From Streptomyces sp. SAI-127 (GTDB taxonomy: Bacteria; Actinomycetota; Actinomycetes; Streptomycetales; Streptomycetaceae): a stretch of 64,000 nucleotides of DNA. Both the position numbers and the translations under genes were made by a program. The stretch spans positions 62,001 to 126,000 of the forward strand of contig NZ_JARXYJ010000002.1 of the NCBI RefSeq assembly GCF_029894425.1. The letters are read 5' to 3'. A model generated the notes under the pieces. The model did no database searches, was not told the origin of the DNA, and was given only the letters and a program-made list of their open reading frames with translations. Position 1 is the stretch's first letter. Each line of letters begins with the position of its first letter. Below, piece after piece: positions 40,327 through 56,838 of this stretch.

Positions 40327-40333
40327 GGCGGCT

Positions 40334-40362
40334 CCCAATCATCGGATGTCTTGATGATTGGG
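40334..40362. promoter_or_regulatory. inverted repeat upstream of the fucosidase
   Basis: CCCAATCATC, 9 nt, GATGATTGGG: perfect 10-bp arms whose centre is about 22 bp from the fucosidase start. It partly covers the ribosome-binding region, so it could be a repressor operator or an mRNA hairpin affecting translation. Confidence 0.6.
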
Positions 40363-40474
40363 GAGGCGTAGGGGAGTGTCAATGGGGGGTGCGTGGAAGA
40401 AAGTCGAAGCAGAGGTCGGATGGATGGGTGTCTCTGGAAGAGGTGGCCTCAGACCTACCGGGCGCGGGCGAGAG

Positions 40475-41100: not shown

Positions 41101-41915
41101 TGGTGTCCGTACTGATATCCCCGGACAAGTTCAAGGGCTCCCTCAGCGCCGACGAAGCCGCCCGCGCACTGGAACGCGGCCTGCTGGAGGCCGCTCCCCG
41201 GATCCAGGTCGACCGACTCGCGCTCTCGGACGGGGGAGAGGGGAGCGTGGCCGCTGCCTGCGCGGGCCGGTTCAGCCCCGAGAAGATCACGGTGACCGGG
41301 CCGAACGGCAGGTCCGTCACGGCCGAGGTCGCGGTGCACGGCCGTATCGTGCTCATCGAGGCGGCGGCCATCTGCGGACTCGCCATGCTGCCGGGTGGGC
41401 GCAAGATGCCGCTCACGGCCACGAGCCGCGGCATCGGTCAGACCACCGACGGCGCCGCGGGCATGCTGCAATCCCTCGGTGCGATGCTGGCCCGGGAGGA
41501 CGGCACACCGATCGGCCCGGGCGGCGCCAAGTTCGTCCTGCGCCCCGAGGACCTCTCGGTCGTCGTCGCCTCCAACCTCAACGCCGACATCCTCTCCGAC
41601 CTCGGCAGCGCACTGGCCGGCAGCCTGGGCCTGGCCGCCAGCGCCAACCTCAACCCCGAGCGCCGCTTCCCCAGCATGTTCGAGCCGGTCCACGGCTCCG
41701 CCCCGGACATCGCCGGCCAGGGCCTGGCCAACCCGATCGGCGCGGTCGGCAGCGCCGCGCTGATGCTGGAGCACTTCGGTCTGCCCGACCAGGCGGCGCG
41801 TCTGAACAAGGCGATCGAGGCCACGACCGGTGCGGGCATCCTCACCCGCGACGTCGGCGGCACGGCCACGACGGACGACGTGGTCAAGGCGCTGATCGAC
41901 GCGCTCGAGGCCTGA
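41100..41915 (+). CDS. chimeric ORF: glycerate kinase N-terminus fused to tartrate/isopropylmalate dehydrogenase C-terminus
   Basis: 271 residues in one uninterrupted frame. Residues 1-143 are a GarK/GlxK glycerate kinase (ISPDKFKGSLSADEAA, LALSDGGEGSV, PLTATSRGIGQ, TTDGAAGMLQSLGA). About 22 residues are missing between GIGQ and TTDG, where the family has its glycine-rich GIGGSA strand. From about residue 145 the sequence is the C-terminal half of a beta-decarboxylating dehydrogenase (VVVASNLNADILSDLGSALA, NPERRFPSMFEPVHGSAPDI). Neither enzyme is complete, so catalysis is doubtful. ATG 41100 shares a base with the dctA stop. It looks like a deletion product of a dctA-glycerate kinase-tartrate dehydrogenase operon. 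Confidence 0.85.
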   Translation: MVSVLISPDKFKGSLSADEAARALERGLLEAAPRIQVDRLALSDGGEGSVAAACAGRFSPEKITVTGPNGRSVTAEVAVHGRIVLIEAAAICGLAMLPGGRKMPLTATSRGIGQTTDGAAGMLQSLGAMLAREDGTPIGPGGAKFVLRPEDLSVVVASNLNADILSDLGSALAGSLGLAASANLNPERRFPSMFEPVHGSAPDIAGQGLANPIGAVGSAALMLEHFGLPDQAARLNKAIEATTGAGILTRDVGGTATTDDVVKALIDALEA

Positions 41916-41968: not shown

Positions 41969-42784
41969 TCACAGACGTTGCCGCGCCTCGCGCCGCCGCC
42001 GCTGTTCGGTCGGGTCCGCGACCGGGGCGGCGAGCAACAGGCGTCGGGTATAGGGGTGTTCGGGGGCCGTGGTGACCTCGCCCGCCGGTCCGGTCTCGAC
42101 GATGTCGCCCCGGTGGATGACGCTCACGCGGTGGCTGACGTGCCGGATGACCGTGAGGTCGTGCGAGATGAACAGGTAGGCGACGCCGGTGCGCCGCTGG
42201 ATGTCGACGAGGAGATCGAGGACGAGGGCCTGGGTGGTGAGGTCGAGAGCCGAGACGGGTTCGTCGCAGACGATGAGCCGCGGGGCGGGTGCGAGGGCGC
42301 GGGCGATCGCGACGCGCTGTCGCTGACCGCCGCTGAACTCCCGCGGCAGCCGCTGTGAGGCATCCCTCGGCAGCCCCACCTGGTCGAGCAGCTCCGCCAC
42401 CCGGAGCCGGGCCTCACCCGCCGCCGTGCCCTGCACGACCAGCGGTTCGCTGAGGATGTCCCCGATGGTGAGGGCCGGGTTGAGGGAGGAGTACGGGTCC
42501 TGGAAGACCACCTGGATGTCCCGGGCCAAAGCACGGCGTTCCTTGCGTCCGGCGCGGGTGATGTCGTTCCCCTGGAAGCGGACGGTGCCGCCGCTGGGCG
42601 CGACCAGGCCGAGCACGGAGCGGCCGATGGTCGTCTTCCCGGAGCCCGACTCGCCGACGACGCCCAGCGTCTCGCCCTGCCCCACGGTGAGCGACACACC
42701 GTGCAGGACCTCGAGCGGGCGGGCTCTGAAGCCCCGCCCCGGGTAGGCGACGCGCAGGTCGCTCACCTCCAGCACTGATGTCAT
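41969..42784 (-). CDS. ABC transporter ATPase, oligopeptide/dipeptide (OppF/DppF) type
   Basis: 271 residues. Walker A GESGSGKT, signature SGGQRQR, Walker B LIVCDEPVSALD, H-loop LFISHDLTV, and the Opp-type C-terminal region (EHPYTRRLLLAAP). ATG 42784 overlaps the stop of the fused permease-ATPase by 4 bp. It is the last gene of a leftward four-gene importer operon and supplies the second nucleotide-binding domain of the complex. Confidence 0.93.
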   Translation of the reverse strand: MTSVLEVSDLRVAYPGRGFRARPLEVLHGVSLTVGQGETLGVVGESGSGKTTIGRSVLGLVAPSGGTVRFQGNDITRAGRKERRALARDIQVVFQDPYSSLNPALTIGDILSEPLVVQGTAAGEARLRVAELLDQVGLPRDASQRLPREFSGGQRQRVAIARALAPAPRLIVCDEPVSALDLTTQALVLDLLVDIQRRTGVAYLFISHDLTVIRHVSHRVSVIHRGDIVETGPAGEVTTAPEHPYTRRLLLAAPVADPTEQRRRREARQRL

Positions 42785-44541
42785 CGCCTCTCCGTTTCGA
42801 GTGCGTCCGCGGAGGCGGCCGGCGGGTCGGTGCGCAGCGTGGTCTCGTCGAGGATGGAGTTCAGGAGCCCCCGCGTGTACGGGTGCTTCGGCGCGGCGAA
42901 CAGCTGCTCCGTCGCGCCTGTCTCGACGACCGTGCCCTCCCGCATGACGGCCACGCGGCCGCAGATGTCCGCGACCACACCGAAGTTGTGGGTCACGAGC
43001 AGTACGGCCATGTTCAGCTCCTTCTGCAGGTCACGCAGCAGGTCGAGGACCTCCGCCTGGACGGTGACGTCGAGGGCGGTGGTCGGTTCGTCGGCGATGA
43101 GCAGCCGGGGCCCGCCGGCGACGGCGCCGGCGATGAGAACGCGCTGTGCCATGCCGCCGGAGATCTGGTGGGGATACGAGCGGAAGGTGCGTTCGGGGTC
43201 GGGTATGCCGCACCTGGCGAGCAGCGCCAGGACCCGCTCGCGGGCCTCACCCCTGGACATGGGCGTCGCGGCCCGCACGCCCTCGACGAGCTGGGCGCCC
43301 ACCGTGCAGGACGGGTCCAGGTTGGACATCGGTTCCTGGGGGACGTACGCGATGGACGTGCCCCGCAGTGCCCGCAGTTCGCGCTCGCTCAGGCCGAGCA
43401 ACTCGCGGCCGTCGAGCCGGATCGAGCCACGGGTGACGACCGCTTCGGCGGGCAGCACCCCGAGCGCGGCGAACGCGGTCTGTGTCTTGCCGGAGCCGGA
43501 CTCGCCGACCAGGCCGAGGGTCTCCCCGGCGGCCACGCTCAGGGTGACGCCACTGACGACTTCCTTCAGTTCGCCGGTCGGGGTCGGATAAGCGATCGCC
43601 AGGTCGTCCACGCTGAGCAGTTGGGTGACGGCCTCGCCCTCCGCGGCCGGTGGCCGGTACCCGGTGGCGGTCACGATCCGGACCGGCTTGGGACGCCCGC
43701 CCTCCAAGGCGTCCCGCAGCGCGTTACCCAGGAGTACCAGCGAAGCGGTGATGATCCCGAGCACGAGGCTCGGCCACAGGAACTGCAGTGGCTCCTCGTA
43801 CAGGTTGGTGAAGCCCTCGGAGATCATCGCGCCGAAGCTGGGCACGGTGCTCGAGCCCAGGCCCAGGAAGGCCAGGCCCGACTGGACGGCGATGGAGGAA
43901 CCGGCGAGGAACGCGGTGGCGATGATCACCGGGCCGCGCACCACGGTGAACACGTGCCGTCGCAGGATGCGCCGGTCGGGCAGTCCGGAGACCCGGGCGG
44001 CGTCGACGTAGAGCTCGTTCTTCACGCCGAGGACGAGATTGCGCACGAGCCGGTAGATGCCGGGAGAGAGGAGCACCCCGAAGACGACCATCGTGGCCCG
44101 GTAGTCGCCCTTGGTGACAGGCATCAGAATGATGAGCAGGAGAAGCCCGGGGAACGTCATGATCAGGCTGAAGAGCCATTCGGTGACACCGCGGACCCGC
44201 CTTGCGAAGTATCCGCCGATCAGCCCGGACGTGATCCCGATCGCGAGGGCGATGCTCGCGCCGATGAGCGCCGACACCACGCTGGTGTTGATGGAGTACA
44301 GGAGCCTGGCGAGGATGTCGCGGCCGCTTTTGTCCCCGCCGAGCAGGTAGCCGTGGTCGCCGATGCCTGCGTTGACCGCGTCCAGGTTCGCCTGGTTGGC
44401 AGTGTGATCGGTGAGGACCGGCGCGAGCAGACCGAGCAGGACGACGACGATCAGCAGGCTCGCGCTGACCACTGCCTGGGGGTCGGTGAGGAGGCGCCGC
44501 AGGGCCGGCCTGCGCCGCGCATCCGTACGCGCTGTGGTCAA
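42781..44541 (-). CDS. fused ABC permease (DppC/OppC) and ATPase (DppD/OppD)
   Basis: 586 residues from TTG 44541, overlapping the previous stop. Residues 1-290 are a DppC-like permease with six helices and the EAA-type loop (AARVSGLPDRRILRRHVFTV). After a short linker (RPPAAEGEAVTQLL), residues 312-570 are a DppD-like ATPase with GESGSGKT, QISGGMAQR and LLIADEPTTALD, ending HPYTRGLLNSILDE. Separate genes are the usual state; a fused pair fixes stoichiometry. No frameshift or internal start signals are apparent, so the fusion seems genuine. Confidence 0.92.
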   Translation of the reverse strand: MTTARTDARRRPALRRLLTDPQAVVSASLLIVVVLLGLLAPVLTDHTANQANLDAVNAGIGDHGYLLGGDKSGRDILARLLYSINTSVVSALIGASIALAIGITSGLIGGYFARRVRGVTEWLFSLIMTFPGLLLLIILMPVTKGDYRATMVVFGVLLSPGIYRLVRNLVLGVKNELYVDAARVSGLPDRRILRRHVFTVVRGPVIIATAFLAGSSIAVQSGLAFLGLGSSTVPSFGAMISEGFTNLYEEPLQFLWPSLVLGIITASLVLLGNALRDALEGGRPKPVRIVTATGYRPPAAEGEAVTQLLSVDDLAIAYPTPTGELKEVVSGVTLSVAAGETLGLVGESGSGKTQTAFAALGVLPAEAVVTRGSIRLDGRELLGLSERELRALRGTSIAYVPQEPMSNLDPSCTVGAQLVEGVRAATPMSRGEARERVLALLARCGIPDPERTFRSYPHQISGGMAQRVLIAGAVAGGPRLLIADEPTTALDVTVQAEVLDLLRDLQKELNMAVLLVTHNFGVVADICGRVAVMREGTVVETGATEQLFAAPKHPYTRGLLNSILDETTLRTDPPAASADALETERR

Positions 44542-45482
44542 CGGACCATCCTCGCCTTCGGGTTGAGCCAGCCGCCCAGCAGGTCGACGACGAGGTTGAC
44601 GAGCACGACGAGCAGCACTCCGAACAGGCTGATGCCCATGATGATCGGCACGTCGCCCTGCAGGGAGGCGTTGAACGCGTACTGACCGAAGCCGGGCAGT
44701 GCGAAGATCTGCTCGATGATCAGGGCTCCGCCGAGCATCTGGATGAACTCCAGGGAGAGGACCGTGAGGGCCGGTCCCGCGGCGTTGCGCAGGGCGTGCC
44801 GCAGGACGATGGAGCGGGTGGGGATACCCCGGGTGCGCAGCGTGCGGACGTAGTCCTTGCGCAGTTCGCCGATCATGGCGCCGCGGATCTGCGAGGTCAG
44901 ACTGGCGACTCCGCCCATCATCAGGGCGACCACCGGGATGGCGATGCTGCCGGCCCAGCGGCTCGGGCTCTCGCTGAAATCCGTGTATCCGGTGGCCGGG
45001 AACACATGCAGCTTGATGGCGAACACGTAGACCAGAGCGATGGCGACGAGCAGACTCGGGACGAGATAACCGATCATCGCGGCGCCCTGCGCGAACCGGT
45101 CGACGGCGCCGCCGCGCGCGGCGGCGGCCACGCCGAGCGCGACGCTGATGACCGAGGTGGCCAACAGGGCGACCACGACGATGGACAGGGTGACGCCCAG
45201 CCGGGCGGTGATGGCCGAGCGGACCGGTTCGCTGGTGAAGTAGGAGGCGCCGAGGTCGCCGCTGACGGCGTGCGTGAGCCAGTCGGCGTACTGGACCGCC
45301 ACGGGCCGGTCGAGGCCCATCTGTGCCTTTTGCGCGGCGACTTGATGCGGAGTGGCGCCGTTGCCGAGGACGCTGCTCGCGACGTCGTCGAAGGACGTGC
45401 TGAGCAGCAGAAACGTGATCATGGTCACCAGGACCGCGAGCACGAGGCCCGCGGTCAGGCGCCGCAGCAGATAGACCGTCAT
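44538..45482 (-). CDS. ABC transporter permease, DppB/OppB type
   Basis: 314 residues, six helices. The N-terminus (YLLRRLTAGLVLAVLVTMIT) is typical of DppB proteins, and the EAA-like loop is YVRTLRTRGIPTRSIVLRHAL. It forms the membrane channel with the fused permease. ATG 45482 lies 10 bp beyond the binding-protein stop, and its own stop overlaps the next start. The periplasmic-loop content FPATGYTDFSESPSRW is normal for the family. Confidence 0.92.
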   Translation of the reverse strand: MTVYLLRRLTAGLVLAVLVTMITFLLLSTSFDDVASSVLGNGATPHQVAAQKAQMGLDRPVAVQYADWLTHAVSGDLGASYFTSEPVRSAITARLGVTLSIVVVALLATSVISVALGVAAAARGGAVDRFAQGAAMIGYLVPSLLVAIALVYVFAIKLHVFPATGYTDFSESPSRWAGSIAIPVVALMMGGVASLTSQIRGAMIGELRKDYVRTLRTRGIPTRSIVLRHALRNAAGPALTVLSLEFIQMLGGALIIEQIFALPGFGQYAFNASLQGDVPIIMGISLFGVLLVVLVNLVVDLLGGWLNPKARMVR

Positions 45483-45492
45483 GGGCGCGGAC

Positions 45493-47088
45493 TCACTCTC
45501 CGGACTGCTGCGAGGAGCCGGCCACGCCGAACTGGCGGATGGTGGACATCGTGGAGGAGCCGTCGCCGAGGTAGGTGATGCCCTTCTTGGTGGCCCAGTC
45601 GCTGCCGAGATAGAAGACGGGCGCCAGCCAGGCGTTCTCGACGCCGAACTCGTTGATCTCCCGGTAGATTCCGGCGGCCTTCGCCGGGTCGAGTTCCCGG
45701 GCGGCCCGGCCGAGGAGTCCGGTCAGCTTCGGGTCGGTGGTGCGGAACACGTTGCGGAAGCCGGTCGGGGTGTAGAAGCTGCGGGTCATGATCGCGTCGG
45801 AGGCGAGGCCCTCCACGAGCAGGAACATCGGGTACTTGCCCGACGCGACGGCTGACGCGGTCTGCTGCGCGGGCACCGGCTCCCAGGTCACCTTGATGCC
45901 GATGTCGGCGAGCGCCTGCGTGAAGATCGGCTCGAAGCTCTTGGTGAAGACCAGGCTCGGCATGGTGACGGAGAAGCCGTTCGGGTAACCGGCCTCGGCA
46001 AGCAGCTTCTTGGCCCCGGCGACGTCGTAGGGGTACAGCTTGTTGAGCGTTTCGTCATAGGCCCCGCTCTGGGGATTGAACAACTGGTCGGTGGCCTTGC
46101 CGGAGCCTCGCAGTACCTGTGTGACGATCTTCTGCCGGTCGAAGGCCATGTTGATGGCCTTGCGGACGCGCAGGTCGCCGAGTGGCTTCAGCTTGGTGCC
46201 GGCGCGGTCGGCGAGGACGAGGAAGGCGCCCGCGGTGGCCTTCACGTGCGTGATCCGGAAGCCGGCCGCCTTGAGGGCGGGCAGCTGGGAGACGTCGGCG
46301 GTGCCGGCGTTGGTCTCGCCCGCCTTGAGGGCGTTGGCCGAGGCGGTCGGGTCGGTGATCACGCGGATCTTGACCGTCCGGAACGGATAGGCCTTCTTGT
46401 TCCAGTAGTCGTCGCGCCGCTTGAGGACGTAGACGGAGCCGTTGACCGTGGCCTTCGTGTCCAGGGTGTACGGGCCCGAGCCGACCGGGTTCAGGGTGGT
46501 GCTCTTGTTCGTCATCGTCTTCGGGTCGCCGATCACGCCGGGCGACGTCGACAGGGCGCCGAGCAGCGAGGCGTCGGGCTGCTTGAGCTTGATGACCACC
46601 GTCGAGGCGTCGGGGGCTTCGACCGCGGAGACGGAGGCCAGCGACAGCTGGCTCTGACCCGGCGTCGACCGGATGCGCTCCAGGGTGGCCTTCACCGCGT
46701 TCGCGTCCACCGGATCGCCCGAGCTGAACTTCATGCCCTGGCGGATCTTCAGCGTCAGCGTGCGCCCGTCCTTCGTGTACGACCAGCTCTGCGCGGCGCC
46801 GGGATGCAGCTCGCCCTTGTTGTCCTGGAGGAGGAGCGTGTCGAAGATCGAGTCCCAGACGTAGGTCTGCTGGCCCTCGATGAGCTGGGCGGGGTCGAAC
46901 GAGTTGGGTGTGCCGAGGATGGACAGTGCGAGGGTCGCGTCGGTGCCGGAGCCCGACGTGGCGGCCGGGGTGCTGTCGCACGCCGCTGTTGCCGTTGCCA
47001 GCAGGGCGACGGCCACAGCGGCCGTCAGGGCCTGCGAGCGGTGTCGCGGCCGTGGGCTGGGCCGGGAGTGCGAGGAGCGGATGCGCAT
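45493..47088 (-). CDS. ABC transporter substrate-binding lipoprotein, family 5
   Basis: 531 residues from ATG 47088 (GAAGGAA 7 nt upstream). Lipoprotein signal with lipid-attachment Cys37 (ALLATATAACDST). Family 5 solute-binding motifs follow: FDPAQLIEGQQTYVWDSIFD, LTLKIRQGMKFSSGDPVDAN and the long DppA-like second lobe. The family binds peptides but also oligosaccharides and plant glycosides. The gene shares a two-part promoter signature with the glycosidase operon headed by GH1 at 56720, which points to a glycoside or its sugar products as ligand. Confidence 0.92.
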   Translation of the reverse strand: MRIRSSHSRPSPRPRHRSQALTAAVAVALLATATAACDSTPAATSGSGTDATLALSILGTPNSFDPAQLIEGQQTYVWDSIFDTLLLQDNKGELHPGAAQSWSYTKDGRTLTLKIRQGMKFSSGDPVDANAVKATLERIRSTPGQSQLSLASVSAVEAPDASTVVIKLKQPDASLLGALSTSPGVIGDPKTMTNKSTTLNPVGSGPYTLDTKATVNGSVYVLKRRDDYWNKKAYPFRTVKIRVITDPTASANALKAGETNAGTADVSQLPALKAAGFRITHVKATAGAFLVLADRAGTKLKPLGDLRVRKAINMAFDRQKIVTQVLRGSGKATDQLFNPQSGAYDETLNKLYPYDVAGAKKLLAEAGYPNGFSVTMPSLVFTKSFEPIFTQALADIGIKVTWEPVPAQQTASAVASGKYPMFLLVEGLASDAIMTRSFYTPTGFRNVFRTTDPKLTGLLGRAARELDPAKAAGIYREINEFGVENAWLAPVFYLGSDWATKKGITYLGDGSSTMSTIRQFGVAGSSQQSGE

Positions 47089-47284
47089 GAGTGGATTCCT
47101 TCGTCCTGGAACCTGAAGAGCCGAGGCCTTCGTCAGTGCGTCGGTGTGTCGGTGCGGTCATGCACGGGTGCACGAGAGGGCCGGTGCACGTGTGGGGATG
47201 TGCGGCGGAGCCCGTGAGGCCGGCATGCGGGTGGGTCGAGGACGCTGCGGCGGTCGCGGATCCGCCGATGGGTCCAGTGGCGTG

Positions 47285-47380
47285 AACAGTTACCACGTGG
47301 TTGGATTTCACTCGGAAGGTAAGCCCCGGCGGGAGGTGCGGGAAGATGGGAGACTCTGTTCGTAATCAGAGCGTTACCTG
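47285..47380. promoter_or_regulatory. two-part promoter signature before the ABC importer operon and TetR gene
   Basis: Element 1 (47285-47309) contains GTTACCACGTGGTTGG with the perfect 10-bp palindrome ACCACGTGGT. Element 2 (47360-47380) contains CGTAATCAGAGCGTTACC, a GTAA/TTAC inverted motif. Both recur before the GH1 operon (56743-56767 and 56818-56838; 23 of 25 and 18 of 21 bases equal) with the same 50-bp spacer. This implies one regulator or promoter type for both operons; the TetR at 47513 is the obvious candidate. The remaining parts of the 424-bp gap 47089-47512 show no gene. Confidence 0.78.
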
Positions 47381-47512
47381 GCGCGAAATCGCCTCGGTGT
47401 GCCCCTTGCGCTCGCGACGAGTGCCACCCACACTGCCGAGCAGGCATCGAAATGCTAAGCCTTGGAAGGTTTTGAGATTCGTGATGCGGGATTCGAGAAG
47501 AGGAAGCGCACT

Positions 47513-48130
47513 GTGACCCAGGCCAAGGCCCGCGGCCCGTACACTAAGACCCCCGCCAGACGGGCCGAGATCGTCCGGGCGGCTCGTGAGAGCTTCGCGG
47601 AACACGGATTCACGAAGGCTTCGCTGCGCGACATCGCCGAGCGGGCCGGCATCACCCACGCCGGGCTGCTGCACCACTTCCGCAACAAGGACGACCTGCT
47701 GGCCGCCGTGCTCGCCGAACGCGACGCCGAGGAGCGGCAGTACGCCGAGTCACAGGTGCCGGACATGGACCATCTGGCGCCCTACCTCGGCGACCTGCTG
47801 CGCCACCACCAGAAGGCCCCCGAACTGATGCGCCTGTGGATCGAGCTCGCGGCGGCCGCCTCCCGCCCGGAGCACCCCGCGCACGACTACTTCGCGCAGC
47901 GCTATGCCTGGGGACGCGAACAGTTCGCCCAAGGCATGAGCGGGAAGGCCGAGCGCGGAGAACTGAACGAGGCGCTCGCCCCCGAACATGCGGCCACGCT
48001 GCTCCAAGCCGTGCTCAACGGCCTGCAGTTGCAGTGGCTGCTGGACCAGGATCTCGACATCGTCGGGCCGGTCCGGGCCTTCATGCGGATGACCTTCCCG
48101 CAGGTCGCAGAGCCAGAGGCCGAAGAATGA
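47513..48130 (+). CDS. TetR-family regulator of the glycoside/ABC regulon
   Basis: 205 residues from GTG 47513, chosen for AGAGGAAG 6 nt upstream; the frame back to 47462 adds an atypical leader. The helix-turn-helix is SLRDIAERAGITHAGLLHHF, followed by a C-terminal TetR_C-like helical domain (LWIELAAAASRPEHPAHDYF). It lies between, and is oriented against, the ABC importer operon and the glycosidase operon, both of which carry the same promoter elements. It probably represses both until a glycoside, aglycone or sugar binds. Confidence 0.9.
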   Translation: MTQAKARGPYTKTPARRAEIVRAARESFAEHGFTKASLRDIAERAGITHAGLLHHFRNKDDLLAAVLAERDAEERQYAESQVPDMDHLAPYLGDLLRHHQKAPELMRLWIELAAAASRPEHPAHDYFAQRYAWGREQFAQGMSGKAERGELNEALAPEHAATLLQAVLNGLQLQWLLDQDLDIVGPVRAFMRMTFPQVAEPEAEE

Positions 48131-48282
48131 GCCCCGGCCGGCCCGGCGTCCAGCCGTACAGCGTGATCGCGGCTCTGGACGCCGACCGCGCGGTGGCACA
48201 CGTCCCCTGACGAACTGGTCGCGGCCGCACGTGCGTTACGCGCGGATCTGAGTGAGGCCGGTCCCGGCGTCAGCTCCGTGCC

Positions 48283-48319
48283 CCGCCGACGGGCCCGCTG
48301 GAGGCGTCACCGTCGGCGG
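48283..48319. terminator. stem-loop between TetR and GH78 genes
   Basis: CCGCCGACGG, 17 nt, CCGTCGGCGG: a perfect 10-bp stem between convergent genes. The 207-bp gap 48131-48337 otherwise holds only a possible short remnant frame (DELVAAARALRADL near 48210-48250). Confidence 0.6.
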
Positions 48320-48337
48320 TTACGTTCCCCGGCCGTC

Positions 48338-51001
48338 TCAACTCGCCTTCCCCACGCGTCCGGTGGCGCTGAACCTGCCGGGGCCCACAGGCTCCTCGAT
48401 CGTGCCGTCGGGGAAGACGACGCGGGCGGTGGTGGCCGGGGGGACGTCGACCGTGATGGTGAGGGTGTCGCCGGTCGTGCGCCACTCGACGGCGATCGTG
48501 CCCTGCGGGGACTCGTGGGTGCCCCGGGCCCACGGCACGGACGGGTGCGGGACCGGCGCCACCTCGAAGGACTCCCAGGCGATCGATCCGGGCGTCTGCC
48601 GCAGCCCCAGGGTGTGGGTGTGGAGGAAGCGGATCGCGGCGCCCTTGCTGTAGTGATTGAGGGAGTCGTGGGCGGTGCCGGTGTCGTCGATGCCCTCCCA
48701 GTCCTCCCAGACGGTGGTCGCGCCGCGGTCGAGCATGTACAGCCAGGAGGGTGCGGTGCGCTGGAGGAGCAGCTCGTAGGCGACGTCGGCGTGGCCGGAG
48801 TCGGCCAGGACGGGGAGCAGATCGCCGGTCGAGAGGAAGCCGGTGGTGAGGTGGGTGCCGGCGGCGCGGATCAGCTCGACCAGCCGCGCGGCGGCGGCCT
48901 CGCGCAGTTCCTCGGGGACGAGCCCGAGGGACAGCGCACGAACGTAACCGGCCTGAGTGTCGCCGGCGGTGCGTCCGTCGGGGGAGAGGAACTCCGTACG
49001 CCAGGCGTCGCGGACCCGCTCGGCGATCACGGCGTAGCGGTCCGACTCCTCGCCGAGCCCCAGCACCCGGGCGACGCGGGCCACAGTCGCCGTCGAGCGG
49101 TACAGGAACCCCGTGCCGACCTCGCCCTTGTCGGCCATGAACCAGGCGACGGGATCGTCCTTGACCGGGTCGACACGGGTGCCGTCGGCCGCCCTCGCCT
49201 TGGGCTCGGTCCACTCTCCCCAGTGGAAAGAACCGTCCCAGAGGTACTGCTCGTGCGGCAGCGGTGCAGCCGAACGCTCGACCCGGGACGGATGGCGGGC
49301 GGTGCGGGCGGTCGTGAGGGCCCACTCCACCCAGCGGACCATCGCCTCCCAGTTCTCGGCGAGGATCTCCCGGTCGCCGTACGACTCGTACAGCTCCCAC
49401 GGGACGGCGACGACGGCGTCCCCCCAGCCGGCCGAGCCGGTCATCATGGCGAACTGGTCGTCCAGGTGGTGTTTGATACGGCGCCCGTCCGGTGAGAAGT
49501 TGGCGACCCGGCCGTCGGGCAGCTGGTCGTCGCGCACGGAGCGCAGCCATTTGCGGTTGAACCCCAGGACGTCGTACAGGCGTGTCGCGGTGGGGGCGAA
49601 GACCTGGTAGTCGCCGGTCCAGGCGAGGCGTTCGCGGGTCGGGCAGTCCGTGGGCACGTCGACGGCGTTGCCGCGGAAGCTCCACTCGGCGATCTCGTGG
49701 AGGCGGTCGAGGTCGGCGTGACCGCACGCGAAAGTGCCGGTGCGGCGCAGGTCGGAGTGGACGACCCGCATGACGAGGCTCGCCGGGTCGAGCGGGGCGC
49801 CGTCGCGCCGGAGGCGGGCGTACCGGAAACCGTGCACGGTGTGACGCGGCTCGAACGTCTCGCCCCCTCCCGCGGAGACGGCGACATCGCGCTGGACGAA
49901 GGGGATCGGGGCCTGGCCGGGGCGTGTGGAGTCCAGGTGAGCGGTCGTCAGGTCGCCGTCGGGGCCGAGGTGTTCGCCGTGATCGACGATCGTGCGGGTG
50001 CCGGCCGGTCCGAGGTCGCCCAGCGCGATCCACCCCGAGGCGTTCTGGCCGAAGTCGGCGATCCACACGCCGTCTTCGAGCTGTTCGACCGACTGCGCCG
50101 GGCGGGACTCGACCACTCGCACCGGGGGTGCCGGCGACCAGTCGACCGGGGGTGCCTCCACCTGGTCGACGAGGACTGGTAGCCCGGTCCCGGGGCGCAC
50201 GCGGAAGTCGGTGGTCTGCCCGTCCATGAGGTCGGCCCGGGTGATGGCCGACTCGGCGCTCGTCCACGTCCCGTCGGTGCGGACGACCTGCCGAGCGCCG
50301 TCCTCGTAGAGAAGGTGCAGTTCGGCCCGCGCTCCGGGCACCGTGCCCCAGCCGGCCGGGAGGCGGAAGGCGCCGACCTGGCCCCGGTACCAGCCGTCGG
50401 ACAGCAGGAACTCCAAGCGGTTGTCGCCCGCTTTGAGGGCGGACGTGACGTCGGACGCCTGGGCGTAGAGCGTGCGGTCGTACGAGGTGGACCCCGGCGA
50501 CAGTTCCGCGGTGCCGGCCCGCACGCCGTTGACGTACGCCTCGTACACCCCGAGCGCCGTCGCGTACAGCCGCGCCGAACGCACCCCGGAGCGTGCCGCG
50601 AACCGGGCCGACAGGACGTACGCGGGCCGCCTGCCGTAGCCGCGGTCACCGGACTCGGCGGGACTGATCCACCGCGCCCGCCAGTCGGCGGCCAGCAGAC
50701 CGCTCTCGAACGTGTGCCATCGCGACCAGGGCGAGCTGCCGTCGGTGTCGAGCGCCCGGACCCGCCAGACCACTCGGCGCCCGCTGTCCAGCGCCGCCCA
50801 CGGCCAGGGGAGGAAGCGGTGCCCGCCCACGGCGGTGGTCACGGCGGGATGCGCCTCGTCGTCGACGGCGCACTCCACCTCGTACGACACCGGGCGTGCC
50901 GCGTCCGACGGCGGCTTCCACGACAGCCGGGGCGTGGGCCCGGACACGGGGAAGGCGTCCCCGCCGCTGTCGATGGCCAGGTCGTACGGTGCGTCGAGCA
51001 T
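48338..51001 (-). CDS. GH78 alpha-L-rhamnosidase
   Basis: 887 residues. N-terminal fibronectin-like and carbohydrate-binding beta domains (PTPRLSWKPPSDAARPVSYE; RWISPAESGDRGYGRRPAYV) precede the (alpha/alpha)6 barrel. The barrel carries the family signature VDVPTDCPTRERLAWTGDYQ, with the catalytic Glu and flanking Asp residues, and a C-terminal beta domain. There is no signal peptide, so it works in the cytoplasm on imported rhamnosides. It is last in the glycoside operon, 97 bp after the GPH transporter. GAGAAGG lies upstream of ATG 51001. Confidence 0.93.
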   Translation of the reverse strand: MLDAPYDLAIDSGGDAFPVSGPTPRLSWKPPSDAARPVSYEVECAVDDEAHPAVTTAVGGHRFLPWPWAALDSGRRVVWRVRALDTDGSSPWSRWHTFESGLLAADWRARWISPAESGDRGYGRRPAYVLSARFAARSGVRSARLYATALGVYEAYVNGVRAGTAELSPGSTSYDRTLYAQASDVTSALKAGDNRLEFLLSDGWYRGQVGAFRLPAGWGTVPGARAELHLLYEDGARQVVRTDGTWTSAESAITRADLMDGQTTDFRVRPGTGLPVLVDQVEAPPVDWSPAPPVRVVESRPAQSVEQLEDGVWIADFGQNASGWIALGDLGPAGTRTIVDHGEHLGPDGDLTTAHLDSTRPGQAPIPFVQRDVAVSAGGGETFEPRHTVHGFRYARLRRDGAPLDPASLVMRVVHSDLRRTGTFACGHADLDRLHEIAEWSFRGNAVDVPTDCPTRERLAWTGDYQVFAPTATRLYDVLGFNRKWLRSVRDDQLPDGRVANFSPDGRRIKHHLDDQFAMMTGSAGWGDAVVAVPWELYESYGDREILAENWEAMVRWVEWALTTARTARHPSRVERSAAPLPHEQYLWDGSFHWGEWTEPKARAADGTRVDPVKDDPVAWFMADKGEVGTGFLYRSTATVARVARVLGLGEESDRYAVIAERVRDAWRTEFLSPDGRTAGDTQAGYVRALSLGLVPEELREAAAARLVELIRAAGTHLTTGFLSTGDLLPVLADSGHADVAYELLLQRTAPSWLYMLDRGATTVWEDWEGIDDTGTAHDSLNHYSKGAAIRFLHTHTLGLRQTPGSIAWESFEVAPVPHPSVPWARGTHESPQGTIAVEWRTTGDTLTITVDVPPATTARVVFPDGTIEEPVGPGRFSATGRVGKAS

Positions 51002-51042
51002 GGGGTGCCTTCTCGGAACTCGGTGGAACGGGATGCTTCTCA

Positions 51043-51088
51043 GGACGCCGGGACGCCGGGACGCCGGGACGCCGGGACGCCGGGACGC
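51043..51088. repeat. 8-bp tandem repeat, 5.75 copies
   Basis: GGACGCCG repeated head to tail from 51043, ending in a partial GGACGC. It fills much of the gap between the GPH transporter stop and the GH78 start. Such arrays vary by slippage and could alter spacing or mRNA structure between the two genes. Confidence 0.85.
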
Positions 51089-51097
51089 GCGCGGCGG

Positions 51098-52450
51098 CTA
51101 CCGCACCGACTTGATCTTGAACTTGACGATGAGGCCGCCGACCAGGGCCAGGACCGCGCCGATCAGATAGAGCTGGGTGTAGTTCTTCTCGCCCCCGGCG
51201 CCGACGCCCAGGGTGATGACGAGCGGGGCGATCAGCGGGGCGACGGCGCTGGGGATCTTCTGCGCGAAACCGACGACGGCGAGGTAGCGGCCCGCCTCGG
51301 CCCGGTCCGGCAGGACGGCGAACACGATCGCCTGGTCGACGGCGCCGAACACCGCGATGGCAAACTGCATCAGTACGGCGCCGACGACCAGTTGGGGCAG
51401 CGAGTGGGCGAACGCCTCGGTGACGGCCCCGGCGACGAACACCGCTGAGCCGATCAGGGCGAACAGCTTGCGCCGGCCGAGCTTGTCGGAGAGGAAGCCG
51501 CCCCCGATGGCGCCGCCCGCCGCGGCCACCACGCCGATGGTCCCGATGACCGCCACGATCCCGGCGACCTCCTTGACCGGCAGGTCGAGCCGCTGCGCGT
51601 AGAAGAAGGTGCCGAACGTCGTGTTGAAGTACAGCCCCATGAAGAACACGAAGCGGCCGAGCCAGTTCCAGCCGAAGTCCGGGTACTTGCGCGGGTTGAA
51701 GCCGTAGCTGGTGACCATGCTCCGCAGCGTCACGCCGGCGGTGTGCACCAGCGCGCGGGAGTCGCCCTCGGGCCTGAACACCGGGAAGAGCACCACCAGG
51801 GCGGCGCCCAGGACGCCCGGGACCAGGAACACCAGGAACGTGCTGGAGGCCACCGCGTAGGCGAGGCCGATGCCGACCACCGGGGCGATCTGGGTCATGA
51901 CGCTGGTCAGGGCGGAGACCCGGCCCCGCTGCTCCTCGGGCACCCGGTCGGCCTGGACGTTCTGGATGGCCTGCCCGGTCGTGGCCCAGCCGATCATGCC
52001 GAGCACCCATGCCAGGCCGAGCAGGAGAACGGACGGCGCGAGGGCGACCCCGACGAGCGCGATGGTGCCGAGCAGAGTGCCGCCGATCATGAAGGGGGTC
52101 CGGCGGCCGAGCCGGGAACGGGTCCGGTCGCTCCAGAGGCCGATCAGGGGGCTGAGAACCAGGTAGACGACCTGGGCGGAGCCGGTGACGTACCCGAGTT
52201 GCTCCTCGTGCCCGGGGGCGAGGTCGTCGATCCGCACCGCGAGCGAGTAGGACAGGGGGACCATGAGGGCCAGGGAGCCACCGAAACTGGCGGTCATCAG
52301 CCACAGGAGATAGCCCCTGCCCACCCTCCGCAGCGGCGGTGCCTCGATCTCGGGCGCGGCGGGGGGCTCGCTGGGACCCCCCACGGCGTCCTGCGGTGCT
52401 GTCTTCGCGAGGGGAACCACCACGCTGACGTCCGGGTCGTCGTGAGGCAT
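51098..52450 (-). CDS. GPH-family (MFS) glycoside transporter
   Basis: 450 residues, twelve helices. The loop after helix 2 reads LIGLWSDRTRSRLGRRTPFM, a signature of the glycoside-pentoside-hexuronide cation symporters and relatives, and DKLGRRKLFALIGSA is its repeat in the second half. GPH carriers include the glucuronide transporter UidB. Located between a beta-glucuronidase and a rhamnosidase, it most likely imports the glycoside. The first 45 residues are an acidic/proline-rich cytoplasmic tail. Confidence 0.88.
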   Translation of the reverse strand: MPHDDPDVSVVVPLAKTAPQDAVGGPSEPPAAPEIEAPPLRRVGRGYLLWLMTASFGGSLALMVPLSYSLAVRIDDLAPGHEEQLGYVTGSAQVVYLVLSPLIGLWSDRTRSRLGRRTPFMIGGTLLGTIALVGVALAPSVLLLGLAWVLGMIGWATTGQAIQNVQADRVPEEQRGRVSALTSVMTQIAPVVGIGLAYAVASSTFLVFLVPGVLGAALVVLFPVFRPEGDSRALVHTAGVTLRSMVTSYGFNPRKYPDFGWNWLGRFVFFMGLYFNTTFGTFFYAQRLDLPVKEVAGIVAVIGTIGVVAAAGGAIGGGFLSDKLGRRKLFALIGSAVFVAGAVTEAFAHSLPQLVVGAVLMQFAIAVFGAVDQAIVFAVLPDRAEAGRYLAVVGFAQKIPSAVAPLIAPLVITLGVGAGGEKNYTQLYLIGAVLALVGGLIVKFKIKSVR

Positions 52451-52805
52451 GAGGACTCCTTTGTCACATGATCGCTAGGGGCGGGCGGTGGCAACCCGTG
52501 GGGGAGAAGGCGGGCTCGCGGCACCCGGGGTGCGGGTCGGACTGGGCGGGGCTGGAACACCGGCCGTCTTGGGCGCCGGGGGACCCGGTCGCGGTCGACG
52601 CGGGCCGGACGTTGCCGCGGGACCGGTCGGTGTACGTCGCCGATGACGGGTCGCCGTACGGCCCCGGGACCTGCGGACGGCATCGGGCCACGGCGCCGGG
52701 ATTCCGTGAGGACGCCCCTGCGCGTCTTGCGGCCCCCTCACCGCCGCTGCTGAACCTGTGTCCAGAGCGCCGACGCCGACAGCGCGCGGCACGCAGTCGC
52801 AGCTG
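52451..52805. other. 355-bp intergenic region inside the glycoside operon
   Basis: No gene is recognised. A plus-strand frame from 52468 has a protein-like stretch (DPVAVDAGRTLPRDRSVYVA) but overlaps the GH2 gene antisense and has no family. The gap may hold an internal promoter for the GPH and GH78 genes; AGGAG at 52452-52456 (opposite strand) is the transporter's ribosome-binding site. No copy of the two-part promoter signature was found here. Confidence 0.4.
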
Positions 52806-54617
52806 TCAGTCGGCCGCGACCTGCCCGGGCTTTCGGCCGCCCAGTCCGAGCCAGCGCCCCCGCAGGGCGAACGCCGCCGACTTCGGCTTGCGGTCGCGGG
52901 TGAACACCCCCTTCTTGTTGCCGTCGACCCGGTGGATGCCGGGCGAGGTCTGGAAGTCGGCGAAGTTCCACACGTGCTCGCCGACGAACTCGGGGATGCG
53001 GTCGAACACCCGGTGGTACATGGCGAGGAAGTCGCTCTGGTACTCCTCGCTCCACGGGGTGTCCCAGACGGAGTGCAGGCCGGGCTGGGTGTCGGCGCCG
53101 TACTCGGACATCATGACCGGCTTGCCGAAGCGCTGGACCCAGCCGCGCAGATCCTGCTCCAGATATCCCTCGGCGGTCGCGAGGTCGCCCGTGAACAGGT
53201 ACCAGCCGTAGTAGCGGTTGATGCTCAGGACGTCGAACAGGTCGCCGATCTGGTCGTTCTGCGGGGTCGCGAACATGACGGCGGCGTAGGTGAGGGGCCG
53301 GGTCGGGTCGAGCTTGCGGGCCAGTTCGACCAGCGGCTCGAAGTAGTCACGCGCGCCGTCCTCGTTGGAGGCCGGTTCGTTGGCGAGGCACCACATCACC
53401 ACGCTCGGGTGGTTCCTGTCCCGCTCGATCAACTCCCGCAGGTGCTGGGCGTGGACGTCCCGCGTGGCCCCGCCGAAGTTCTCCGGCGCGAAGGTCGGGG
53501 TCGGCGGCACGCCGGTGAGACCGCCCTGGACCCCCAGGTTGAGGCCGACGGCGGCGGTCTCGTCGATGACGACGATGCCGTGCCGGTCGGCGAAGTCCAG
53601 GACCTCCTCGGCGTAGGGGTAGTGGGAGGTGCGGAAGGAGTTGGCGCCGGTCCACTGCATGAGCTGGAAGTCGTGGACGAGGTAGGCGTCGTCGTGGCCC
53701 TTGCCCCGGACGGGGGTGTCCTCGTGCTTGCCGAAGCCGGTGAAGTAGAAGGGCTCGCCGTTGATGAGGAAGTCGGTGCCGCGCACCTCGACGGTACGGA
53801 CGCCGAAGGGCTGGGTGTAGCTGTCGACGGTCTCGCCGTCCACGGCCAACTCCACGACGAGGTCGTAGAGGTAGGCCGCGCCCGGCTGCCAGAGCGTGAC
53901 GTCCTCGATGCGCAGGGCGCCCTCGGGGCCGTCTCCCTCCGCGACGGTCCGTCCGTCCTCGTCCACCGCGCGCACCCGCACGGTGACCGTGTCGGCGTGC
54001 TCGCCGGCGACCTCCACGCGGTAGCCGACGGTACCGGCCGCGGCGTCCCGTCCGGTCACGACGGTGACGTCCTCGACGAAGGTCGTCGGCGTGCTGTACA
54101 GGCGGACCGGGCGCGCGATGCCCGCGTAGTTGTAGAAGTCGTGCAGGTACGACTGCCGCTCGCGGCCGTCGGGCCCTGTCATGACGGTGCCGGGCGGGAT
54201 CGTCACGTTCGTCAGCCGGTTGTCGACGCCGACCGTCAGCCGGAACACCGCGCCGGGCTCGACGACATCGGTCAGGTCCGCCTCGAACGGCGTGTAGCCG
54301 CCGGTGTGTTCGGCCACGAGCCGCTCGTCGACGTAGACCTGAGCGGCGTGGGTGACCGAGCCGAAACGCAGGACCACGCGCTCGCCGGTCCAGCCGCGTG
54401 GCACGCGCACGTCGCGCTGGTACCAGACGACTCCGACGTGGTCCCGGATCTCCGGGTCCACGAACAGGTCGTTGTAGCTGGCGGGCACGGGCACTTCGAG
54501 CGGTGGGGCGAGCCGTGACGCCCAGGGGGTGGCGCCGGCGCGGGTGCCGGGAGCGAACCGCCACAGGCCGTCGAGGCCGACGAGGTCGCGGGTGGGGGTG
54601 GTACGGGGCGAGAGCAT
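52806..54617 (-). CDS. uidA: GH2 beta-glucuronidase
   Basis: 603 residues from ATG 54617 (TAGGAA upstream), the same length as E. coli UidA. The sugar-binding, immunoglobulin-like and barrel domains are in standard order. The acid/base is Glu414 (WCLANEPAS) and the nucleophile Glu505 (MMSEYGAD). The glucuronate-specific Asn-x-Lys motif is present as Asn567-Lys568-Lys569 (VDGNKKGVF), so it should prefer glucuronides over galactosides. No signal peptide. It sits between an SDR and a GPH transporter, resembling a uidA-uidB arrangement. Confidence 0.93.
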   Translation of the reverse strand: MLSPRTTPTRDLVGLDGLWRFAPGTRAGATPWASRLAPPLEVPVPASYNDLFVDPEIRDHVGVVWYQRDVRVPRGWTGERVVLRFGSVTHAAQVYVDERLVAEHTGGYTPFEADLTDVVEPGAVFRLTVGVDNRLTNVTIPPGTVMTGPDGRERQSYLHDFYNYAGIARPVRLYSTPTTFVEDVTVVTGRDAAAGTVGYRVEVAGEHADTVTVRVRAVDEDGRTVAEGDGPEGALRIEDVTLWQPGAAYLYDLVVELAVDGETVDSYTQPFGVRTVEVRGTDFLINGEPFYFTGFGKHEDTPVRGKGHDDAYLVHDFQLMQWTGANSFRTSHYPYAEEVLDFADRHGIVVIDETAAVGLNLGVQGGLTGVPPTPTFAPENFGGATRDVHAQHLRELIERDRNHPSVVMWCLANEPASNEDGARDYFEPLVELARKLDPTRPLTYAAVMFATPQNDQIGDLFDVLSINRYYGWYLFTGDLATAEGYLEQDLRGWVQRFGKPVMMSEYGADTQPGLHSVWDTPWSEEYQSDFLAMYHRVFDRIPEFVGEHVWNFADFQTSPGIHRVDGNKKGVFTRDRKPKSAAFALRGRWLGLGGRKPGQVAAD

Positions 54618-54669
54618 GGAGTTCCTACCGGGGGCTCGGTGTGGTCGGGATGGTCGGGGCGATGTGCGG

Positions 54670-55491
54670 TTACGTCGTCTCACCGGCGTCCGCGAGGAGC
54701 GTGCTGCCCGTCATGAAGGCCGAGAGGTCGCTCGCGCAGAACAGCACCACCCGGGCGATGTCGTCCGGCACACCGAGCCGGCCGAGGGGCCCTGGCCTCA
54801 TCACGGAGAGGAGCGCCTCGGAGTCCAAGGGGACCCCGGCCGCCGCGGCCGCCGCCATGTTCCCCTCGGTCGGCACGAAGGTCGGTGCGACCCCCAGCAC
54901 GCGGATGCCGAACGGGGCGAACTCCAGGGCGAGTTGACGGGTGAGGCCGCGTGCCGCGTGCTTGGAGCCGACGTACGCGGCGAGCCCGGGGGCCGTCCCG
55001 CGGAACCCGGCCGTGGACACGACGTTGACGATGACGCCCCCGCGCCCGGCCTCGCTCATCCGGCGCGCGGCCTCCCGGGAGCCGAGGAAGACGCCGCGGG
55101 TGTTGACGGCGAACACCTCGTCGAAGGCCTTGTCGGACATCTCCAGCGCGGGGACGCTGGGGAAGACCCCGGCGTTGTTCACCCAGATGTCGATCCCGCC
55201 GAGCTCCCGGACCGCGAGGTCGGCGGCGGCCACGACACTGTCGGGGTCGGTGACGTCAAGAGGGGCGGCCAGGGCGCGGCCCTGACCCCGGGCGCCGAGG
55301 TCCTCGGCGACGGCCGTGGCGAGCTCGTGCTGGATGTCGGCGACGAGCACGTCCGCGCCCGCCTCGGTCAGCCGTTCGGCGACGGCCCGGCCGAGCCCCC
55401 GGCCCGCGCCGGTCACGACGGCGCGCCGCCCGGACAGCGAGACGAGTTCGGTCAGGGACTTCGACGAGACGTCGGGTACGGATATCTGCAC
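54670..55491 (-). CDS. short-chain dehydrogenase/reductase of the glycoside operon
   Basis: 273 residues from GTG 55491 (AGAGGA upstream). Classical SDR: VTGAGRGLGRAVAERL, NNAGVFPS, catalytic Tyr-x3-Lys in YVGSKHA. It resembles gluconate/3-oxoacyl-type SDRs. Between GH1 and GH2 it may oxidise the released sugar or the steroid/triterpenoid aglycone. It starts 25 bp after the GH1 stop. Confidence 0.9.
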   Translation of the reverse strand: MQISVPDVSSKSLTELVSLSGRRAVVTGAGRGLGRAVAERLTEAGADVLVADIQHELATAVAEDLGARGQGRALAAPLDVTDPDSVVAAADLAVRELGGIDIWVNNAGVFPSVPALEMSDKAFDEVFAVNTRGVFLGSREAARRMSEAGRGGVIVNVVSTAGFRGTAPGLAAYVGSKHAARGLTRQLALEFAPFGIRVLGVAPTFVPTEGNMAAAAAAGVPLDSEALLSVMRPGPLGRLGVPDDIARVVLFCASDLSAFMTGSTLLADAGETT

Positions 55492-55516
55492 GATGCGTCC
55501 TCTGAGTGCGGTGCGG

Positions 55517-56720
55517 TCAGATCCGGCCGCGGCGGGCGGTCTCGCCCAGCCAGGCCAGCGAGGGCTTGGGTCGGCGCTCGAAGGTCTCGCGGTCCACCGC
55601 GACCAGGCCGAACGTCGGCGCCCAGTGGCCCCACTCGTAGTTGTCGAGCAGGCTCCAGTGCAGATAGCCGCGTACGTCCACCCCGTCGGCGATCACCTTG
55701 CCGAGATGCTCCAGGGCCTCGCCCGTGTAGGCGATACGGCGCCTGTCGTCGCCGGTGGCGATGCCGTTCTCGGTGACCAGGATCGGCAGGCCGTCGGTGA
55801 CCTCGGCGGTGTGCCGTACCGCGATGCTCAGGGCGTCGGGCCGGTAGGCGGTCCCGACGAGCGTGTTGTCCGGGTGCGGAGGGTAGGGCTCGATGCCCTC
55901 CGGGCCGACCCACTGGCTGGAGTACGACTGCACGCCCACGAAGTCGTCGCCGCGCGCCCCTTCCAGGTAGAGGTCCTCCCAGATGTACTCGAGCTCCCGC
56001 TTCTTCTCCTCCGCCCCGGGACGGGCGACGAAGGCGCGGTTGGCGACCGTCCATCCGACCTTGGCGCCGGTGCGCTCGCGCAGCACCTCCCGCGCGGCGT
56101 GGTGCGCCTCGACGAACCGCGCGCCGATGGCCGGATCGGGGGCCGGCAGCGGCGGACGCGGACCCTCGTTGTCGAGGGTGGGGCTCTGCCACTCCCCGTC
56201 GGCCTGCGGGTTCTGCAGGGCCCGCGCCATGCCGGCCATGATGGCCAGCATGTTCGGCTCGTTCATGGTGACGGTCCACTCGACGCCTTCGAGGATCGGC
56301 GCGACCGTCTCGACGTACGTCCGGAACCGGTCGACCGCGCGCTCGCCGAGCCAGCCGCCCTCCTGGGCGAACCAGAGCGGGCTGGTGAAGTGGTGCAGGG
56401 TCACGACCGGCGTCAGACCGAGCTCGAACGCCGTGTCGATCATGCGCCGGTAGTGAGCGAGTTCGGCGCGCGAGACCAGGCTGGGGACGGGCTCGATGCG
56501 GCGCCCACTCGATGCCGAAACGGTAGGCGTTGAGTCCGGCGTCCGCGAGCAGCCGCATGTCCTCGCGGTACCGGTGGTAGCTGTCGCAGGCGTCGCCGCT
56601 GCGCTCCATGCCCGGGATGCGTCCCTCGTTCGCCCAGAAGTCGCTGTTGAGGTTGTTGCCTTCGATCTGGTGCGGTGCGGTGGATGCGCCCCAGAGGAAT
56701 CCGGGAGCGAGTTCGGTCAT
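55517..56720 (-). pseudogene. GH1 beta-glycosidase with a single-base frameshift
   Basis: From ATG 56720 the protein begins MTELAPGFLWGASTAPHQIE and continues to YRFGIEW. One extra base near 56500-56505 (in the GC run coding the following Ala-Arg) shifts the frame. The remainder, from PSLVSRAELAHYRRMIDTAF to the stop at 55517, is intact, with acid/base in TMNEPN and nucleophile in LVTENGIA. Without the extra base the gene would encode about 400 residues, normal for GH1. A sequencing or assembly error in the homopolymer-rich stretch is as likely as a true mutation. It heads the operon, with the two-part signature upstream. Confidence 0.85.
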
Positions 56721-56742
56721 CGTCGAGTGCCTTCCTGACGCC

Positions 56743-56838
56743 AACAGTTACCATGTGGTTGGTTTTCGCTGGAACGTAGACCGGGATCGCGAGGCGGGGA
56801 AGGGCGCAGGGGGGTTTCGTAACCTGAGCGTTACATGA
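56743..56838. promoter_or_regulatory. two-part promoter signature before the glycoside operon
   Basis: Element 1 (56743-56767) contains GTTACCATGTGGTTGG; element 2 (56818-56838) contains CGTAACCTGAGCGTTACA, an inverted GTAAC/GTTAC motif. Sequence and 50-bp spacing copy the pair at 47285-47380. Element 1 starts 23 bp before the GH1 start codon, so it could sit over the start of the transcript. Confidence 0.78.

Follow-up and report, generated by a model that had tools for sequence, protein, structure and literature searches.

What do two leftward operons set around a single TetR gene do in the soil bacterium Streptomyces sp. SAI-127? The locus occupies positions 41,969 to 56,838 of the window, a stretch of 64,000 nucleotides from contig NZ_JARXYJ010000002.1; the source genome measures 10.7 Mb, and its closest relatives are Streptomyces, with S. 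canus among the nearest. One operon encodes glycoside hydrolases of families 1, 2 and 78 (GH1, GH2, GH78), a short-chain dehydrogenase/reductase (SDR) and a major facilitator superfamily (MFS) carrier; the other encodes an ATP-binding cassette (ABC) importer of family 5. We consider it probable, from sequence comparison, that the two form a TetR-controlled, UidR/UidA-like regulon that would import a glucuronide glycoside and strip it inside the cell. Open reading frames (ORFs), strands and families were examined by Pfam and NCBIfam profile searches against the models' cut-offs and by searches for relatives of solved structure; those given in an initial annotation of the locus hold, except for the intactness of GH1 and the label of the carrier (Table 1).

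Promoter boxes common to the two operons

An 11-mer common to both upstream regions was extended to two boxes, box A (GTAACGCTCwGrTTACGAA) and box B (CAACCACrTGGTAACTGTT), which are colinear and lie 74 bp apart at the importer promoter and 73 bp apart at the enzyme promoter. Box A has two matches in the strain's own genome (up to two mismatches), both exact and both at these promoters; box B (up to three mismatches) has two exact matches, both here, and one elsewhere with three mismatches. Reversed-pattern controls gave none. Because both promoters carry these near-unique boxes, the two operons probably function together, which favors the initial annotation's idea of one import-and-strip system.

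Across 246 Streptomyces genomes, with at most one mismatch, box A has 10 matches in 7 genomes and box B 5 matches in 4 genomes (reversed controls, 1 and 0). Eight of the ten box-A matches lie at an enzyme or importer operon (two each in G000, the SAI-127 genome, and G125:C15; others in G176, G179, G182 and G227); of the remaining two, one precedes a decayed copy of GH1 (L188), and the other has no relative nearby (L189). Counted with the decayed copy, nine of the ten box-A matches and all five box-B matches fall at this system. The boxes were also sought in 80 loci around actinobacterial beta-glucuronidase (GUS) genes (the best 80 of 366; 1.58 Mb), where box A has 29 matches and box B 35 with three and four mismatches permitted (controls, 0 and 1); the patterns were derived from these same loci, and the own-genome and 246-genome scans constitute the independent test. 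Some of the 246 genomes are the organisms of GUS loci (G125 is L036, G182 is L037, G176 is L041, G179 is L040, and G062 holds L050).

Among the 12 GUS loci with exactly the gene order of the enzyme operon, box A precedes GH1 in all 12 and both boxes do so in 10 (L038 and L044 have no box B there). Where ABC genes lie beside the cassette (L031, L034, L036, L037 and L038), both boxes precede the binding-protein gene in 5 of 5; elsewhere, both precede it in L060 and L066, only box B in L070, only box A in L078, and neither in L079. The spacing in relatives is 71 to 75 bp. In L039, L048, L060 and L092, box B is also found ahead of TetR genes, as expected of an autoregulated operator, and we infer that TetR may bind there. 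UidR (PDB 6ayi; E 5.1e-9 over residues 11 through 163 of the 205-residue form) is among the solved relatives of the TetR protein; TtgR gives a higher score, limited to the DNA-binding part.

S. griseoruber carries the two boxes a third time (L188, G125:C1:992000-1011999), before the decayed GH1 gene, which is 72% identical in part and runs into another large ORF, GH43-like by eye.

The glucuronidase and the importer

The GH2 enzyme is, as judged by homology, a true UidA-type beta-glucuronidase. It passes the NCBIfam equivalog for this activity by a wide margin (Table 1), is 54% identical to E. coli UidA, retains NKK and aligns across NKKGVFTRDRKPK with solved glucuronidases, in agreement with the glucuronate-specific Asn-x-Lys motif annotated initially. 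The best solved relatives are 5c71 and 5c70 (814 and 813 bits), which we take to be the Aspergillus oryzae enzyme studied on glycyrrhizin, followed by the E. coli enzyme (∼716 bits; 3k46 is among the solved glucuronidases).

A second UidA-type GUS, 55% identical, is encoded in the same genome at 7.06 Mb (L171, G000:C1:7052000-7071999), preceded by genes for a family-1 binding protein and a pair of permeases and with its own divergent TetR gene. This is a separate case of GUS paired with an importer and TetR, and we count it in favor of the regulon.

The family-5 importer is complete, as first annotated: Pfam identifies an SBP_bac_5 binding protein, two permeases and two ATPases, with OppC and OppD fused. 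The AlphaFold2 model of the binding protein has a mean pLDDT (predicted local distance difference test) of 87, and its best Foldseek matches are family-5 binding proteins; as a route to the ligand Foldseek was set aside, as it yields the family and not the ligand, and the matches include peptide binders. Similarity to the binding protein shows a gap, with 8 places in 7 of the 246 genomes at 54% identity or above and then 19 places at 39% or below. GUS lies within the fetched 20 kb in 6 of the 8 close orthologs (the window included) versus 0 of 13 distant places (13 of the 19 were fetched; Fisher p 0.0005, uncorrected for kinship); at the edge of one distant place, L163, lies a GH2 relative of 32% identity. 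Among 150 genomes (G000 through G149), the five that hold a GUS of at least 55% identity are the same five that hold a close binding protein. An importer, taken as at least two of OppB, OppC-D and OppF, occurs in 36 of the 80 GUS loci. In a scan of 83 of the 151 ORFs from the distant places, with importer genes and others left out, the nearby genes included GH43, GH78, GH42, ROK and sugar-isomerase-like ones. By this context of GUS and sugar genes, the importer appears to be of glycoside type, as the initial annotation had it, and not for peptide use. Two binding-protein residues separate the GUS-linked proteins from the distant ones (12 of the 13 compared): Arg225 is present in 25 of 25 versus no Arg in the 12 controls, and Arg518 in 23 of 25 versus 1 of 12. 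They are candidate carboxylate contacts.

Enzyme cassette and layout of the locus

GH1, SDR, GUS, MFS and GH78 are all present in 19 of the 80 GUS loci; besides the 12 with the same contiguous order, Nonomuraea, Thermocatellispora, Actinoplanes and S. flaveus (L059, L067, L061, L081, L107) have the five families arranged differently. Because they stay together in other gene orders too, the cassette appears to be a functional set. The neighborhood search proposed initially for GH78-GH2-carrier-ABC sets recovered the cassette repeatedly, with ABC genes beside only some of the copies. Family counts are approximate, since the gene caller was trained on the codon usage of the window and may miss or shorten genes; the GUS family was clustered in 79 of 80 loci, and 21 representatives of neighbor families were scanned.

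The best solved relative of GH78 is 3w5m (410.7 bits). The solved protein (3w5m, 3w5n), which we take to be SaRha78A, has a chain of 1043 residues, versus 887 in the window protein, which carries no visible export signal. The initial annotation held that none of the three glycosidases has a signal peptide, and by hydropathy, a simple measure and not a signal-peptide predictor, no N-terminal hydrophobic stretch is visible in GH78, GH2, the SDR or the N-terminal GH1 piece (best 12-residue Kyte-Doolittle mean 0.92; 2.49 for the binding protein as control).

The carrier had been assigned to the glycoside-pentoside-hexuronide (GPH) family, a label that we drop: it fails the curated models (TIGR00792 gph, 20.9 bits with a cut-off of 231.35; MFS_2, 19.2 bits with a cut-off of 27) and passes only the generic MFS_1. 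Some of its homologs do match MFS_2; it has no solved relative at E 0.01. The best solved relative of the SDR is the acetoin reductase 1geg, and neither its families nor its solved relatives point specifically to aglycone oxidation. Precedents in excerpts of the literature are 3-oxo-glycyrrhetinic acid, an end product in Aspergillus, and sapogenin 3beta-hydroxysteroid dehydrogenase candidates in Sphingobium. With a rhamnose operon present in the genome, there is less call for it to act as an L-rhamnose 1-dehydrogenase, though it may.

The GH1 domain and motifs are present, as annotated, but there is no single intact ORF. The gene's N-terminal part starts with an ATG at 56720, and its C-terminal part, which runs to 55517 and carries both catalytic motifs (NEP and ENG), is read in a different frame; L031 and L032 lack the one additional base present here near 56,490. 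The break is either a true pseudogene or an assembly error. Other GH1 genes of the GUS loci are single ORFs of 396 to 443 residues in 44 of 51 cases and shorter gene calls in 7; among the 120 database relatives listed for the C-terminal piece, on which the similarity comparisons rest, those at least 85% identical have 400 to 405 residues.

The closest solved GH1 is SGR_2426 of Streptomyces griseus (420 bits, with the L031 relative as query). According to an excerpt of its description, SGR_2426 is specific for the beta-1,2 link among glucooligosaccharides and also acts on p-nitrophenyl (pNP)-beta-Gal (PMC12369401). The window GH1 shares its NEP and ENG motifs and differs at the acceptor site, in addition to being broken: the +1 contact Gln229 is replaced by Arg, as in 26 of 52 GH1 genes of GUS loci, and Trp291 by Thr (Thr or Asn in 51 of 52). 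An Arg here would suit a glucuronate acceptor. It does not track GH78: Arg is present but no GH78 is seen in L047, L055, L057 and L090, and L052, L059, L061, L067, L081 and L096 have GH78 with Gln or another residue at the +1 site.

Table 1. Genes and promoter boxes of the locus, in window positions
Feature	Position	Strand	Basis
OppF-type ATPase of family-5 ABC importer	41969..42784	-	ABC_tran 114.2 bits; oligo_HPY 26.4, slightly below cut-off 27.1
Fused OppC permease and OppD ATPase	42781..44541	-	BPD_transp_1, OppC_N, ABC_tran and oligo_HPY within a single ORF
OppB-type permease	44538..45482	-	Pfam BPD_transp_1, BPD_transp_1_N
Family-5 substrate-binding protein; N-terminal hydrophobic stretch with Cys at its end	45493..47088	-	SBP_bac_5 240 bits; hydropathy; AlphaFold2/Foldseek
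Importer-promoter box B, CAACCACGTGGTAACTGTT	47285..47303	-	
Importer-promoter box A, GTAACGCTCTGATTACGAA	47359..47377	-	
TetR regulator	47462..48130, alternative start 47513	+	Pfam TetR_N, TetR_C_6
GH78 alpha-L-rhamnosidase	48338..51001	-	Bac_rhamnosid6H 318.4 bits (cut-off 24.5) and four other rhamnosidase domains
MFS carrier	51098..52450	-	MFS_1 114.8 bits (cut-off 33.4)
GH2 beta-glucuronidase	52806..54683, probable start 54617	-	PRK10150 858.5 bits (cut-off 544)
SDR-family dehydrogenase	54670..55491	-	adh_short_C2 182.4 bits
GH1 beta-glycosidase, frameshifted in assembly	55517..56720	-	GH1 domain, comparison with relatives
Enzyme-operon box B, CAACCACATGGTAACTGTT	56743..56761	-	
Enzyme-operon box A, GTAACGCTCAGGTTACGAA	56816..56834	-	

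The layout of two leftward operons flanking TetR stands, with TetR divergent from the ABC operon; it is convergent with the enzyme operon, however, whose promoter lies ∼9 kb off. To the left of the importer operon, an alpha-L-fucosidase (37978-40338, minus strand) is probably exported because it has a Tat-like hydrophobic N terminus with twin Arg. Between them (40393-41915, plus strand) lie dicarboxylate symporter fragments and an ORF in which a partial glycerate kinase is joined to the tail of an isocitrate/isopropylmalate-type dehydrogenase; these look like remnants of a degraded operon. In L033, L034, L036, L037 and L038 (L036:16768-17565 was scanned), GH78 and TetR are separated by a small xylose-isomerase-like (AP_endonuc_2) gene, for which there was no gene call in the window or in L031.

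Predicted pathway and candidate substrates

Put together, the UidR-like TetR would control both operons, probably repressing at box B, and the glycoside, or a product formed early in its breakdown, may release it. As linkage suggests, the intact glycoside would enter via the family-5 importer, with the MFS carrier as a second or alternative route. Inside the cell, GH78 would take the terminal rhamnose, GH1 the beta-linked galactose or glucose and GH2 the glucuronate, with activities assigned by homology and in this presumed order; the SDR might then oxidize a freed hydroxyl of the aglycone. Plant glycosides of the type rhamnose-hexose-glucuronic acid-aglycone (Rha-Hex-GlcA-aglycone) would fit this enzyme set.

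Freed rhamnose could enter the genome's own rhamnose operon (G000:C1:1.44 Mb), in which a bifunctional aldolase/dehydrogenase (1108.8 bits; cut-off 567.75) has isomerase-like and kinase genes beside it; RhaA (PF06134) is absent from the genome, which does not imply that rhamnose is not used. UxaC adjoins GUS in 28 of the 80 loci, 14 of them also with ABC genes. LarA/B/C/E nickel-pincer cofactor genes stand beside glucuronate genes in 12 GUS loci (L049, L051, L053, L058, L062, L069, L072, L076, L082, L086, L087, L096), and 16 others, with no overlap, have a mannonate-dehydratase-like (MR_MLE) gene. This pattern suggests an alternative branch through a nickel-dependent epimerase that takes mannonate to gluconate; epimerases of this type are known, according to an excerpt of PMC7583248.

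Several observations weigh against the two-operon glucuronide regulon. GH1 is broken in this assembly. Among solved structures, TetR matches TtgR best, though only across the DNA-binding part, and its best NCBIfam model, ScbR, falls below its cut-off. Two of the eight close orthologs of the binding protein, both from G194, show no GUS across the 20 kb fetched around them. UxaC (PF02614), the glucuronate isomerase of the isomerase route, is absent from genome G000, so that growth on released glucuronate is uncertain. Just 4 of the 12 exact-order loci show ABC genes inside the fetched flank, with a few flanks ending early (e.g., L033); the importer is therefore not a constant partner, and uptake elsewhere may fall to the MFS carrier.

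Other explanations differ in how much of the locus they join. It is very improbable that the operons are adjacent by chance and that the importer serves peptides or nickel chelates: its best NCBIfam matches are of Gsi, Nik and Opp types, all below cut-off, and peptide binders are among the Foldseek matches, but the near-unique boxes common to both promoters and the linkage of the importer clade to GUS speak against it. A simpler glucuronide (flavonoid, animal drug or steroid), with GH78 and GH1 serving other glycosides under the same regulator, seems unlikely. The UidR-like TetR would suit such a compound, and the importer accompanies GUS without GH78 in 29 of its 36 loci; however, because GH78, GH1, SDR and MFS are linked to GUS in 19 of 80 loci, other orders included, the five probably act on one compound. 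Oligosaccharides of arabinogalactan-protein or gum-arabic type are built as Rha-GlcA-Gal, and identical activities would dismantle them, with GH78 removing rhamnose, GH2 glucuronate and GH1 galactose; distant importer relatives also lie near GH43, GH42 and GH78 genes. Against this substrate, which we regard as improbable, no polymer-cutting gene is seen beside the set within the window, the 21 neighbor families scanned contain no arabinogalactan-specific GH79 or PL27 domain, and TetR regulation with a UidA-type GUS resembles small-glucuronide systems.

Nested within the two-operon regulon is a soyasaponin-type triterpenoid saponin as substrate (a 3-OH chain of Rha-Gal or Rha-Glc linked beta-1,2 to GlcA), an assignment that fits but that we rate as less likely than not. 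Here GH1 would read the hexose-beta-1,2-GlcA link via its +1 Arg, and the SDR would oxidize the freed 3-OH. The set of GH78, GH1 and GUS agrees with it, as do the +1 Arg and the properties reported in part for SGR_2426 (beta-1,2 specificity among glucooligosaccharides and activity on pNP-beta-Gal; PMC12369401). LacZ-type GH2 beta-galactosidases in 13 GUS loci (L049, L050, L051, L062, L065, L069, L077, L083, L089, L090, L094, L095, L107), which would offer another set of enzymes suited to Gal-GlcA glycosides, also point this way, as does the closest solved GUS, 5c70/5c71, if it is the A. oryzae enzyme studied on glycyrrhizin. The failure of the +1 Arg to track GH78 counts against it, as does a report that soyasaponin added to soil enriched Novosphingobium, the excerpts of that literature mentioning no Streptomyces. 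A term search of open-license papers gave none joining soyasaponin, beta-glucuronidase and rhamnosidase, and none combining the terms for an actinobacterial glucuronide ABC importer; neither is proof of novelty. Excerpts of PMC8538258, PMC6650892 and PMC6219552 were also drawn on. The fullest version, which we consider rather unlikely, would make the locus the core of a complete oleanane-glucuronide-saponin pathway: intact import, removal of rhamnose, cleavage of hexose-beta-1,2-GlcA by a GH1 with an acid-sugar acceptor site, removal of glucuronate and oxidation of the 3-OH, with the importer as first recognized member of a glucuronide-dedicated actinobacterial family-5 ABC clade.

In the uidR-uidABC (gus) operon of E. 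coli, UidR is the regulator, UidA the glucuronidase and UidB the GPH-family carrier. The two-operon regulon is like it in its UidA-type GUS, in having UidR among the solved relatives of TetR and in the adjacent MFS carrier, and unlike it in a carrier that fails the GPH models, in the extra GH78, GH1, SDR and family-5 ABC genes, and in a second promoter with the same boxes. The GH2-GH3-GH78 glycoalkaloid clusters of Arthrobacter sp. S41 and Glutamicibacter halophytocola S2, as described in excerpts (PMC10653915, PMC13039779), similarly use clustered GH2 and GH78 enzymes to strip a mixed sugar chain off a plant compound. They have a reported beta-galactosidase activity and GH3, whereas the window set has a beta-glucuronidase GH2 and GH1 in place of GH3 (GH3 occurs in 6 of the 80 GUS loci); relative to them, the importer and promoter boxes are new. 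Boxes with only 10 and 5 matches in 246 Streptomyces genomes make the regulon, its inducer and its importer directly testable, and if the importer clade does carry glucuronides, the 36 of 80 GUS loci with an importer would gain a predicted uptake route.

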